64,000 bases of DNA from Bacteroidota bacterium (GTDB taxonomy: Bacteria; Bacteroidota; Bacteroidia; Bacteroidales; UBA7960), in assembly GCA_007694165.1 (NCBI GenBank), contig RECE01000222.1, forward strand, positions 1 to 64,000, given 5' to 3'. Of this stretch, positions 56,054 to 63,792 are shown piece after piece. The number at the start of each line of letters is the position of its first letter. The stretch's first letter is position 1. The translations under genes and the position numbers were made by a program. The notes below the pieces were generated by a model, which saw nothing but the letters and a program-made list of their open reading frames with translations, made no database searches and was not told where the DNA came from.

Positions 56054-56346
56054 TTATGGCAGTGTTTATTAATTCTACTTTGGCACATTTAATCTTTGAT
56101 ATTATATTACATGTCCGCAATAACTAAGCATCTTTGACCAGACCAATAGGCACACACTGGGTGTAATGGCAAATCTGCAATAACCTCCAATCACCCTTAT
56201 TTCTATGTAACAACAAACATAGCTTTGATTATCTTGCCAAACCCAAAATTAACAAAACCATTGCTAGAGCATCAGACCCGGTTTGATCTGAAAATCATAA
56301 AGAGAAACTTGTGAACTCACAAAACAAGGAAAGGCAATACATCCCG

Positions 56347-57934: not shown

Positions 57935-59377
57935 TTACCGAACCATTAGCAAACGGGAACCAGATACATTGCTATTGAAAAACCTTACGATATAAACCCC
58001 GGAATGCAAGGCTGATATATCAATGGTTTCAGAAGCTTTGACGGGAAAATGAATGAGCATTTGCTTTCCGGAGGTGGAAAATATCTCCAGTCTATCTATC
58101 CTTTCCGGCGAAGAAAAAACGAAATTCTTCCCGGCAGGATTGGGATAAATGGTTACATCAATAGTATAATCAGTTCTATTCACAAACACAGTAGTATCAC
58201 CCCAAATCTTTTCAGCTAAAACAGGATGATCAACAAATGGGTTGCGGTTTCCCTGCAGTTCATATATTAAATCATTGCGCAGCCTCTCTCTCTGGCTCAC
58301 AGGATCATTTCTGTGCCATTCCATGAGCATTTCAATGGCCCAGGGTTCATAGCCGGGAAAAGTGTTATGGTCAAACATGGTATTTCCCTCCGCACTGTAA
58401 GTCCAGTCTTCAATCTGATCTTCATAACGGGTAATCATGTAAAGGAAGGCACGGGCCAAATCTCCTTTGTATTCATCGATAGGCTCAAAGGCTGTTCCAG
58501 TGTATTGATCCCCGGCGGTATTGGCACCAAGCTTTCCTCCGTTGAGCGAAGTCCAGGTGGGATTTGCTACCATCCCAAAGGGAAAGTTATCGCGTACAGC
58601 ATTCACATGCTTATCCACAGGATAAATGTGGTACATGTCGGTATTCATGGGATTAACAGCCCCTCCAAACCAGGAACGGGGCATGGAGTGCTCCCTGTTA
58701 TAAACATCGCCTTCAATGTTACCGCCCGATCCGGTATCCTGATCTTCTCCGAAAACAAAGATGTAGGGGGGCTCACTGCAGGGAATATCCGAGTAGATAT
58801 CCCATACAAAACCCGAAAAAGTAACGTCCGTTTGCCGGAAGTGTGTCCAGAGACTATTATAGCTCAATGTATTGTGACCCTTAATGATGTTATGCAGCTG
58901 TGTTTTGAGTTCGTGTCCCACAGAAGTGGCAGTACTGTAATAACCTTGTGGAATTTGCGGAGGGATACCTGTTACCTGGGTGGCAAGCTCAGCACTGCCT
59001 GCAGAAGTTGTAGTGTGAGTGATTACAGGATGGAATTCACCGGAACTACCGGGATGGGCCCTTACAAAAACCCGCTGATCAATCGCCCCTGCCACGGGAA
59101 CCAGGGTAAGTTCCTGTGCAAAATCTGAATAACAATCCAGCGAAATCATCAGGGGGTACTCCGCCACTACATTCATCGCAGTGGTAAGGTTGGTGATATA
59201 AACATCATAAAACTGCACATCAGAAACCGTATGAATGTAAACTTCTCTGAAATCAGGCAGTTGCTCTGGTGTAAGGACAATTTGGTTTACAGATCTATCG
59301 TCGATATGTTTGCTTTGCAAAAGATGCGGAGAGAATATCGCAATTGAGCATACAATTGCAAAAAGTATCGTCTTCAT
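57935..59377 (-). CDS. Secreted endonuclease I (EndA/NucM) family protein with T9SS sorting domain
   Basis: YNREHSMPRSWFGG...DMYHIYPVDKHVNAVRDNFPFG; C-terminal VTIYPNPAGKNFVF...GVYIVRFFNSNVSGSRLLMVR. Confidence 0.9.
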   Translation of the reverse strand: MKTILFAIVCSIAIFSPHLLQSKHIDDRSVNQIVLTPEQLPDFREVYIHTVSDVQFYDVYITNLTTAMNVVAEYPLMISLDCYSDFAQELTLVPVAGAIDQRVFVRAHPGSSGEFHPVITHTTTSAGSAELATQVTGIPPQIPQGYYSTATSVGHELKTQLHNIIKGHNTLSYNSLWTHFRQTDVTFSGFVWDIYSDIPCSEPPYIFVFGEDQDTGSGGNIEGDVYNREHSMPRSWFGGAVNPMNTDMYHIYPVDKHVNAVRDNFPFGMVANPTWTSLNGGKLGANTAGDQYTGTAFEPIDEYKGDLARAFLYMITRYEDQIEDWTYSAEGNTMFDHNTFPGYEPWAIEMLMEWHRNDPVSQRERLRNDLIYELQGNRNPFVDHPVLAEKIWGDTTVFVNRTDYTIDVTIYPNPAGKNFVFSSPERIDRLEIFSTSGKQMLIHFPVKASETIDISALHSGVYIVRFFNSNVSGSRLLMVR

Positions 59378-59507
59378 ATTTCAGTTTTTTTTGGGGAGCA
59401 CAAATATAAGTGAATATAGCCGAAGTAAAACCAACCATGTATTAGATTCTTATTAGTACTACTTTGACAGATATAGAATAATTCTTAAACCTGTCTTATT
59501 CAGGTAG

Positions 59508-59683
59508 AAACCTTATTTTAATAATTCATTTAACCTTAGTAGAAATGTGTGTGGTAAAACAACTTTAAACCTTATTACCTTATTACACATCTTCAGATCA
59601 ATCTTTTTCCAATAAGGTAATAAGGTTCAATTAACTGCTTAAATTTACTTTCTACTAAGGTTAGCGGATTTCAAATAAGGTTT
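59508..59683. repeat. Three co-axial nested inverted repeats
   Basis: AAACCTTATTT 59508-59518 / 59673-59683; TAACCTTAGTAGAAA 59531-59545 / 59649-59663; AACCTTATTACCTTATT 59568-59584 / 59611-59627; all perfect. Confidence 0.9.
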
Positions 59684-59839
59684 TTGAGTTTAAAGATTAT
59701 TTCGGATAATCGCTATCTTGTAAAGCCTTAACAACGGCATAAAAAGATAGGTTGCCGGTTTAAATATTCCTCAAAATATTTATAGACTAAACGAATCGTA
59801 ATATGTCAAAGTAGAATTAGAAAAGCCCTGTTATATAAA

Positions 59840-59907
59840 AACAAAAAAACCGGTCATTAAGCCTGGTGGAAAGGAGATGCTCCTTCTGCGACAGGCTCAA
59901 TGACCGG
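59840..59907 (-). terminator. Large intrinsic terminator of the surface-protein gene
   Basis: CCGGTCATT(A)AGCCTG (from 59850) / CAGGCT(C)AATGACCGG (to 59907) plus inner AAGGAG/CTCCTT stem; U-tract on minus strand. Confidence 0.8.
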
Positions 59908-59955
59908 AAATTATGTGTCACTGAACTTTTCAGTTTAAAAGACGGCAGGCAAGCT

Positions 59956-62900
59956 CTACCTGCGGACAATTATTTTCTTCGTCTCCAATCCGTTATCTGT
60001 TGTTAGGGTAAGAAAGTAAATTCCGGAAGGAATTTCGGAAAGAGAAAGACTGAAGCGGCGGCTCATTACAGATTGGCTCATCAGTCGCACGCCCCTTATA
60101 TCCGTAAGTGTAAATTCATATATGGCAGACCTGGACGAAACTTCAATGTAATTACTGGCAGGATTGGGATAAACATTTGTGGGTGTATCATACAAAGCAT
60201 CCAGGCCGGTGACTCCCCAATAATCATGAAAAACTGTATCAGAAAGCACCTGCACGTTCCTGTCTTGTCCTGGTTCAGGGTTACCTACCCCAGCGTTTAT
60301 GTAATACTTATAAATATAACTACCCTCTTCCAGCTCCATGGTATTGGCATAAATCATGTCGCCGATGGGCTCCATCAGTTGCTCATCGGGCAACGTACCA
60401 GGAATGGCAAAATTAAACATGGAACCTGAAACAAACACCAGGTCTGCATCGGGATCAAAACCCGGAGCATTGCTCATATCTACCCTGAATGTGACAGTGT
60501 AAATCTGAATTTCGGGCACAACTTCAACAGCAATCGTGGCTGTAATGCCATCAGGGTTCTCCATTCCTTCTTCCAGCTGAATTTCACCTGTAAGATGATA
60601 AGTTCCAATCACATCACCATCGAAATCGCCCTCTGTCCATACCACCTGCAAATTTTCTGTACCCGTATCGTCAAAAGTAACGGAAACTGTCTCCGGCAAA
60701 TTCAGTTCCTCAAAAGCAGTTCCAATTTCAACTGTCAAAGCATCAGGAGTTTCAACTCCTGTAACTATGCGTTTGAAGTCGGAAGAGAATACTCCTTTCA
60801 CAAAAATATCATCAATTCTTGAGGTTCCGGCGCCGGCAACATCGCCACCATTGACAGAAATATTGGAATCCATCACCCAGCGGATATAAAGGAAAGGTTT
60901 GTTATTGCAGGCTGCAGGCAAAGGCAAATCTGCCAGTACTCCGGCAGTGAAGTTATTCTCTACGGTAATATTGCTGTTTTCCACATCCACCCAGCTACCT
61001 GATTGTCCTATTCTATACTGGACTGCAAAATCCCGCGGTCCGGTATTTGAACCTCTTTGCTTGCTGGAAAGATTCAATTCGCCGTAACCAATGGTAGTCA
61101 GTTCTATCATCCAGTATTTAACCCCTTCGCCATCTACCCATTGGGTAGTACTGATAGCATCGCCGGAAGCCCCGGCCAGCCAGCTGTAGGAACCATCAAA
61201 ACCAGGCTCCCTGGAAATGAATTTCCCAATATTTCCTTCAATTCCTTCATTGGCTCCCTGGGTGTTTTCAGGGAAAGTCCAGCCGGCCACAATGATTTCC
61301 TGTGGAATATCCAGCACCTCTACTGATATTTCAGCCATCAGGTTATCCGGATTTTCGATTCCTGCCACCAGCACAACTTCTCCTTCAAGCTGGTATACTC
61401 CCGGCTGAGTGCCGTCGTAATCTCCCTCCAGCCAGATTACATCAAGCTGAATTATTGAATCATTGTCCAGCGTTACATCTGCAACCTGAGGCAATGGAAG
61501 ATCTTCAAACAATATACCCTGTTCCACGATGATTACCTGATCGATAACATGAACGCTAACAATATTCAATGCCACGATTTCTTCTACCACCGAAACAATT
61601 ACCTGTGCCTGAACATCATCATCGTTGGTTATTCCATCAGGGATTACGAGCTCTCCCGTGATAAGATAGTCACCAATCGCATCACCATCATAATCGCCTT
61701 CACTCCATACTACGTCCATTCCCACTACCTGGTTGTTATTCAGTGTTACAGCAACCGTTTCAGGCAAACCAATCTGGTCAAAGGCAGTACCTTGCTCCAC
61801 TTGAATACCCTGCAAAGTTTCTACAGAAACCACATTGGGAATAAAACCTGAGTCTGTTCCTTCCACAAAAATATGATCGATCCTGCTGGTCCCGGCGGCT
61901 GATACAACATTTCCATTCACAGAAGTATTACTGGTCATGATCCAGCGAAGATAAACAAGGGCTTTTTCTTCCATTTCCTGGGGAAGCGGAACCTGCAACA
62001 ACGCACCGGAGGTAAAATTGTTGGCAACAGTGATATCTGCATCCGCAACATCCTGCCACTCACCATCAGCGATCTTAAACTGTAACTTAAAATCACGGGG
62101 ACCTGTATTGGAGCTTTGCTGGGTACTGCTTACCAGCAAATCAGAATATCCAATGGTTGAAAATCCTATCTTCCAGAATTTGGCATCAATTCCATCGGTC
62201 CATCCGGTAGAAGAAATACTCTGACCCGTCACACCTGCCGGATAGGTTAAATTGCCAACAAAGCCTTCCTCCCGGCTGATGGGATTGCCAATATTTTCAG
62301 TGGTACCCAGGTTTGCACCCGGGTTGTCTGCCACAGGAAAAGTATATCCGATAACTACATCATCGGGTACAAATATTTCTTCTGATACGGTAACCTCTAT
62401 CTGAGCCTGGAGGTTTTCGGGGTTTGTAATCCCCTCCTCCATGACCAGCTCACCCTGAAGGATATAAAGTCCGGCAGTCTGCCCGTCATAATCTCCCTGC
62501 AACCAGTTAACTGTAAGAGCCATTGTCTCTTCATTATCCAGTGAAACATTCACTTGTTCGGGCAGTAGAAGTTCTGCGAAAGGGGTGCCGAAATCAACAG
62601 TTAAACCTCCAGGGTTTATAATGCTGGTAACAATTAAATCAATATCAGGGTCTAAAACCTGATAAGAGAATACGGGCGATAAAGCTGTTTGGTCATCTGT
62701 ATCTGTAGCTTGCACACGGTAATAAACACTGGTATTATGAGTTTGAGCAGGGATGTCGCTAACTGTGGCATAGGTTTGTCCGGCATCCAGTGACATCACA
62801 ATGGTGTTTTCAAGAGAAGCATCACTTACCCCCCATTGAAGCTCAACTGTTGAAACAGGAGCGTCGCCTGCAGCCACATCAGCAGAAACAGCTACCGTTG

Positions 62901-63792
62901 TTTCAGGGGCAATATTCCCGGACGGGGTTTGCACAATATTGGTAATGGAGGGTGGCATAATACCTTCACCCGCCAGCCATATGCTTACATTGTCAAAATA
63001 CGCAGTCTGGTTGGCAGCAGTTGACCCTTGCCAATAGGCACCCAGATAATTGAGCGCAATATTGGTATATTCATTGTCAACGATGCTGCCCAATGAAGTC
63101 AGCTCACCTGCAAGGGGATCTTCAAACTCAGTGCCATCCAGACGTCCCCATAATTCCCAGGTGCTTGTTGCAGGATCAAAGGTTAAGCCTATGCTCATAT
63201 AATTGATTGTAGGATTGTCCAGGGGATCTGAGCCGACAATAAGACCAGTTGCAGCAGTGCCTAAAGACTGAATACCACCAGAAAACTTCACCAACCTTAC
63301 CGGATCGGGAGTCCCGGTGTTGCCCAGTACGATGGCATAACCGCTTCCTGAAGTAGCTACATTGCTGTTATCGGCACCGATTATAAATGCCACTCCATAG
63401 GCATTGGAAGAGAAGCCTGCCGGGTTGGGACGTATCTGGCGCATATTGAAATACCAGCTAACGGGTTGTGTGTTGGTTCCCAGCACTGTGCTGAAAGGAG
63501 CGTCAAAATCGTCCGCATCCAGGTGTGCAAAAACCCAACCGCCCACATTTACCTCAGTTGATGCGGTATTGGATAGTTCAAGCTGGTTATTATGAATTCT
63601 TGCTCCCCAATCCACCCCTGATCGACTTACTACCCATGGCGTAGTACCGATGTTTCCTCCGGGAGTAAATACCTCTCCTTGCGAAGCAGTAAAATCAGAA
63701 GAATGAAGATTAACCTGGGCGCTGACGGGGAGCCAGAAAAAAAGACCCAAAATAAAACTCAAAATGTTTTTTACTGTAAAGATTCTATTCAT
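59956..63792 (-). CDS. Large T9SS-exported multidomain surface protein with duplicated modules and four Big_4-like domains
   Basis: 1278 aa; signal peptide; four copies of W(L/S/T)xGDYDG...GxYxLxGELVxxxGIxN; two copies of a GxTFPxxxxxGANxGxxxNIGxxISREPGF module; C-terminal NVYPNPASNYIEV...GIYFLTLTTDNGLETKKIIVRR. Confidence 0.85.
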   Translation of the reverse strand: MNRIFTVKNILSFILGLFFWLPVSAQVNLHSSDFTASQGEVFTPGGNIGTTPWVVSRSGVDWGARIHNNQLELSNTASTEVNVGGWVFAHLDADDFDAPFSTVLGTNTQPVSWYFNMRQIRPNPAGFSSNAYGVAFIIGADNSNVATSGSGYAIVLGNTGTPDPVRLVKFSGGIQSLGTAATGLIVGSDPLDNPTINYMSIGLTFDPATSTWELWGRLDGTEFEDPLAGELTSLGSIVDNEYTNIALNYLGAYWQGSTAANQTAYFDNVSIWLAGEGIMPPSITNIVQTPSGNIAPETTVAVSADVAAGDAPVSTVELQWGVSDASLENTIVMSLDAGQTYATVSDIPAQTHNTSVYYRVQATDTDDQTALSPVFSYQVLDPDIDLIVTSIINPGGLTVDFGTPFAELLLPEQVNVSLDNEETMALTVNWLQGDYDGQTAGLYILQGELVMEEGITNPENLQAQIEVTVSEEIFVPDDVVIGYTFPVADNPGANLGTTENIGNPISREEGFVGNLTYPAGVTGQSISSTGWTDGIDAKFWKIGFSTIGYSDLLVSSTQQSSNTGPRDFKLQFKIADGEWQDVADADITVANNFTSGALLQVPLPQEMEEKALVYLRWIMTSNTSVNGNVVSAAGTSRIDHIFVEGTDSGFIPNVVSVETLQGIQVEQGTAFDQIGLPETVAVTLNNNQVVGMDVVWSEGDYDGDAIGDYLITGELVIPDGITNDDDVQAQVIVSVVEEIVALNIVSVHVIDQVIIVEQGILFEDLPLPQVADVTLDNDSIIQLDVIWLEGDYDGTQPGVYQLEGEVVLVAGIENPDNLMAEISVEVLDIPQEIIVAGWTFPENTQGANEGIEGNIGKFISREPGFDGSYSWLAGASGDAISTTQWVDGEGVKYWMIELTTIGYGELNLSSKQRGSNTGPRDFAVQYRIGQSGSWVDVENSNITVENNFTAGVLADLPLPAACNNKPFLYIRWVMDSNISVNGGDVAGAGTSRIDDIFVKGVFSSDFKRIVTGVETPDALTVEIGTAFEELNLPETVSVTFDDTGTENLQVVWTEGDFDGDVIGTYHLTGEIQLEEGMENPDGITATIAVEVVPEIQIYTVTFRVDMSNAPGFDPDADLVFVSGSMFNFAIPGTLPDEQLMEPIGDMIYANTMELEEGSYIYKYYINAGVGNPEPGQDRNVQVLSDTVFHDYWGVTGLDALYDTPTNVYPNPASNYIEVSSRSAIYEFTLTDIRGVRLMSQSVMSRRFSLSLSEIPSGIYFLTLTTDNGLETKKIIVRR

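Follow-up and report, generated by a model that had tools for sequence, protein, structure and literature searches.

The 64,000-nucleotide window analysed here, contig RECE01000222.1 of a Bacteroidota bacterium (assembly GCA_007694165.1), contains a 360-bp element in the gap between an Endonuclease I gene and a gene for a Big_4 repeat protein, each encoding a type IX secretion system (T9SS) sorting tail. Within the element, three inverted repeats are nested around nearly the same centre. An earlier note on this DNA had described the three nested repeats at 59508-59683 and their position between two T9SS-exported proteins, and both descriptions hold. The span of about 176 bp it gave is present as a core, whereas the true repeat unit is about twice as long, running from 59457 to 59816 with TTAG on each side. 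The features are as follows, with a strand given where one applies.

59457..59816: whole element, a 360-bp miniature inverted-repeat transposable element (MITE) of IS701 type, delimited by BLASTN copy ends, paired terminal inverted repeats and target-site duplication
59453..59456: left copy of the target-site duplication, TTAG
59817..59820: right copy of the target-site duplication, TTAG
59457..59473, plus strand: left terminal inverted repeat, 17 bp, TACTACTTTGACAGATA, fitting the IS701 end consensus
59800..59816, minus strand: right terminal inverted repeat, 17 bp, AATATGTCAAAGTAGAA
59508..59683: REPIN-like core C-B-A-loop-A'-B'-C', found also without IS701 ends and around TnpA genes
59508..59518, plus strand: block C, AAACCTTATTT
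59531..59545, plus strand: block B, TAACCTTAGTAGAAA
59568..59584, plus strand: block A, AACCTTATTACCTTATT
59585..59610: loop, 26 nt, the position taken by the tnpA gene in transposase loci
59611..59627, minus strand: block A'
59649..59663, minus strand: block B'
59673..59683, minus strand: block C'
57935..59377, minus strand: downstream gene, outside the element, Endonuclease I with T9SS sorting tail
59956..63792, minus strand: upstream gene, outside the element, Big_4 repeat protein with T9SS sorting tail

The arms formed by C and C' (11 bp), B and B' (15 bp) and A and A' (17 bp, reaching 20 bp at 95%) are perfect, and their centres fall between 59595.5 and 59597.5. The region folds better than 200 of 200 dinucleotide shuffles on both strands, as RNA (z-scores of -6.9 and -7.7 for the two strands) and as DNA (-6.5 and -7.1). 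Since no shuffle folds equally well, the nested palindrome is not a product of chance.

BLASTN against the host genome, a check proposed in the earlier note, recovers about ten more copies of the element, full-length or truncated, at 79-90% identity. Homology among these copies extends to 59452 and 59820, well past 59508-59683. The palindrome is thus not the one-off that the lack of a second copy would have indicated, and the copies, together with the conservation of the blocks, rule out a single decayed palindrome, as the earlier note had already judged. Target-site duplications, also proposed there as a check, are present as TTAG on both sides. Counting from the duplication, TWCTACTTTGACA agrees with the IS701 consensus ---YACT-Y--YR at every fixed position. 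Among 23 hand-listed elements with paired terminal inverted repeats, 16 have identical 4-bp flanks, against 5.9 expected by re-pairing; none of 20000 permutations reached 16. An autonomous relative exists in the genus-mate G002, in which contig C255 carries an intact 1496-bp IS701-family element with the same ends as the window MITE; its transposase scores 241 bits against the NCBIfam IS701 model (cut-off 150) and possesses a DDE_5 domain. The published traits of the IS701 family, namely ends of the form ---YACT-Y--YR, a length of 1400-1550 bp and a duplication of exactly four bases (PMC2266710), are all matched. Because terminal repeats, duplication, copies, autonomous relative and published traits fit, the outer layer is, judged from its sequence, an IS701-type MITE, which bears out the MITE option of the earlier note. 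The orthologous gene pair lacks the element in four genus-mates (G002, G008, G009 and G011); an exact empty site was not seen in them, their spacers being too diverged for a single TTAG to be recognised.

A second family of MITEs, 215-225 bp long, shares the IS701 ends and a TTAG-type duplication and has a different interior, composed of ACCGCTACGCGGT and CCCTGTAGGGG hairpins. It is found in the own genome (G000) at C39:3680-3894, C390:6984-7198 and C139:20737-20957, and G003, G005 and G006 have elements of comparable length with these IS701 ends. Near tnpA genes, the palindrome motifs of this family give only scattered matches with 2 mismatches at three distant loci and none at the close clade. 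The window also has a single IS701-like end, TTAATTCTACTTTGGCACATTTA, at 56073-56095 between an S1-type gene and a TPR gene, with no partner end.

The inner core has a distribution of its own. Block A (AACCTTATTACCTTATT) has 43 matches in the own genome when up to 1 mismatch is allowed, compared with 0 for the reversed control. In the full-length MITE copies 3 of 88 block columns are variable, against 35 of 88 columns of core spacer (p 2e-9), and an alignment of 18 cores from two families of the order likewise has nearly invariant blocks and free spacers. Cores without IS701 ends are present in G000, G003, G007 and G050. The own genome has two tandem units at the edge of contig C260 and one more core at C188; G007 has four, G003 has two, and G050, a member of another family, has many. 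The cores at C132 of G007 and C303 of G003 have CTCGTCCGACGACT..AGTCGTCCGACGAG hairpins on both sides, which give them a different outer context. The earlier note's prospect of an ordinary insertion sequence (IS) remnant applies to the outer ends and not to the inner core. Block A is not self-palindromic, and GTAG is present only within block B. Genome-specific variants of block A exist, AACCTTATTCCCTTATT in G044 and AACCTTATTAGCTTATT in G047, and this difference suggests lineage-specific partner enzymes.

The same blocks surround a transposase gene. The own genome has one Y1_Tnp gene above the Pfam cut-off, which encodes a HUH (Y1) transposase of 147 aa on contig C65 and lies within an array of A blocks set in inverted arrangement. 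Five homologues of this TnpA at at least 64% identity were identified among 59 genomes, four of them block-flanked, so that in this first set, own locus included, 5 of the 6 tnpA loci of the clade have blocks. The order in G036 and G050 is C-B-A-[gene]-A'-B'-C', i.e. the window core with the gene replacing the loop; in G050 the gene-proximal upstream arm is partly degraded and a complete core lies just beyond. A later sample of 393 genomes yielded 19 new loci of the clade. Blocks adjoin the gene in 18 of these, in some cases as lineage variants or only on one side of it, and in 13 of the 19 the inverted repeat across the gene outscores all 288 control windows. The B-A spacer of G185 measures 22 nt, equal to that of the window. 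In G405, G084 and G101 both arms depart from the consensus in matching ways, and therefore the arms change together between lineages. Order-wide, the inverted repeat across the gene exceeds the 99% control level in 18 to 20 of 28 loci, the distant ones mostly having other, self-palindromic sequences. Distant genes of the order with the Y---Q--HH motif have inverted palindromes of their own on their flanks, such as AAGCCGCATAGCGGCGA in G020 and G029, a few copies of which also lie elsewhere in the genome.

The motif YILNQPEHH of the own TnpA corresponds to the Y---Q--HH signature, which is found in 6 of 6 close homologues and in 23 of 28 proteins of the wider set; the relatives are Bacteroidales metagenome-assembled genomes. 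Against the NCBIfam model REP_Tyr_transpos the protein scores 19 bits (cut-off 80), and the Y---NP motif is absent. Y---Q--HH defines TnpA_Y1 subclass 1.2, which Quentin et al. 2018 (PMC6006769) describe as a low-copy group, found mostly in Bacteroidetes and Cyanobacteria, whose members generally lack the terminal structures typical of IS200. By signature, low copy number and Bacteroidetes host, the enzyme is predicted to be of the subclass 1.2 type. A search of open-access text found no later paper tying subclass 1.2 to a repeat, and no TnpA homologue was found in phages.

Because the blocks are invariant, the spacers free and the same blocks flank a transposase gene, the inner blocks appear to behave like paired recognition sites. 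This supports, in this form, the earlier note's option of an opposed array of protein-binding sites, and the MITE and recognition-site options are supported together. We therefore favour, at a probability of about 0.78, a two-layer non-autonomous mobile element with an IS701-end MITE outside and the gene-less arms recognised by a subclass 1.2 TnpA inside. The most plausible reading of the core is a tnpA cassette that lacks the gene and is a substrate of the enzyme, comparable to a REPIN, a doublet of repetitive extragenic palindromes (REPs). Building on the observed anatomy, copies, target duplication, autonomous IS701 relative, block invariance and the association and spacing of blocks around the gene, we infer the following course. 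An IS701 transposase acting in trans would have inserted the 360-bp MITE here, duplicating TTAG. The full cassette would be C-B-A-[tnpA]-A'-B'-C', of which the window version has a 26-nt loop instead of the gene. By analogy with IS200 and REP systems, the arms most likely fold into a hairpin while the DNA is single-stranded during replication, and TnpA most likely binds, cuts and rejoins the folded arms and would thereby move them. We also hypothesize, at what we regard as even odds, that subclass 1.2 is a separate REPtron-like system, in which genes are looped in lineage-specific, co-changing nested blocks and gene-less cassettes spread, also inside unrelated IS-derived MITEs.

Several observations weigh against this two-layer reading. 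The blocks beside the tnpA gene of the own genome are of A type and AACCTTATTACCTTAGTAAC and do not have the full C-B-A order, and G007, G010 and G044 are rich in A blocks without a close tnpA. The own assembly is 8.3% contaminated, and contig C65 could for this reason be foreign; its tetranucleotide composition is not unusual for the own genome. The A blocks, unlike classical REPs, are not self-palindromic. The window's own draft genome yielded no IS701 transposase of the G002 kind; insertion sequences are often missing from draft assemblies. Finally, compensatory changes above the level of shuffles were not found among the 18 core copies, and the pairing of the arms therefore rests on the both-arm changes between lineages. 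As to the earlier note's question of whether the blocks co-vary or stay invariant, they are invariant among near copies, and in some distant lineages both arms shift together.

The alternative that survives best, though we think it unlikely, is that only the IS701 MITE matters and that the inner palindrome is captured filler with no present tie to TnpA. The TTAG duplication indicates that the latest move of the window copy was by IS701-type transposition, and the second MITE family combines the same ends with a different interior, both as this explanation would have it. Filler would not be expected, however, to keep its blocks in diverged MITE copies while the spacers drift, nor to occur without IS701 ends in four genomes. 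Less probable still is the proposal that the repeats are older, serving as protein-binding or chromosome-organising sites of another system, and that tnpA merely prefers them for insertion. The genomes with many blocks and no close tnpA are in its favour, but the block order and spacing around tnpA are fixed in many families, the two ends of the gene are mostly within 3-50 nt of A, and both arms are altered together by lineage in the three genomes named above. A structured RNA (an option of the earlier note), a riboregulator or a bidirectional terminator lying between the genes is very improbable in spite of the very stable fold on both strands, as neither the gathering-score nor the E-value scan of Rfam had a match above threshold (best, a sub-threshold mir-126 at E 0.13), pair covariation across 18 copies equals that of shuffles, the same core lies at many unrelated loci, and no intrinsic terminator with a T-run was found within the element. 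Integron attC sites were set aside from anatomy alone, because the copies are dispersed singly.

Elsewhere in the window, a hairpin with 25-nt arms at 59841-59916 lies right behind the Big_4 stop and is followed by a minus-strand T-run. It is probably the terminator of the Big_4 gene, and it holds TCATTGAGCCTGTCG, which is repeat-like in appearance. Positions 1-248 carry 3 minus-strand tRNA genes, of which the first is truncated by the window edge.

The 2018 survey separated subclass 1.2 from the IS200 transposases partly for its general lack of typical IS200 terminal structures. The association described here names a concrete candidate substrate, the C-B-A arms, and suggests that the core blocks are the previously missing DNA partner of a little-studied HUH enzyme group, which would be positioned between IS200 elements and REP systems. 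Also, the recognition palindrome of one transposase appears to travel in the MITE of another, a possible route for the spread of REP-like sites.

Compared with known systems, the element shares with IS701 MITEs the end sequence, the 4-bp target duplication, the lack of a transposase gene and an autonomous relative within the genus, and differs from them in enclosing a conserved palindrome that appears to be the recognition site of an unrelated HUH transposase. With TnpA_Y1 subclass 1.2 as described (PMC6006769), the enzyme has in common the Y---Q--HH signature, a short protein, low copy number and a Bacteroidetes host; here, in contrast, nested inverted blocks flank the gene and gene-less copies lie elsewhere. 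Classical REP enzymes belong to class 2 (Y---NP), and REP sites are GT[AG]G-footed palindromes. In a REPtron, a REP-associated tyrosine transposase (RAYT, or TnpA_REP) gene lies between inverted REPs (PMC3116915, PMC2817692). Like REPINs and REPtrons, the present sites are short, conserved, arranged as inverted pairs and dispersed in the genome, and they flank a single-copy Y1 transposase gene. However, the enzyme is of class 1 (Y---Q--HH), neither the A nor the B site is a self-palindromic GTAG hairpin, each arm consists of three nested blocks, and copies number in the tens and not the hundreds. Since neither a class 2 enzyme nor GT[AG]G-footed palindromes are present, the repeat, which may be REPIN-like in its working, is not classed as a REPIN.
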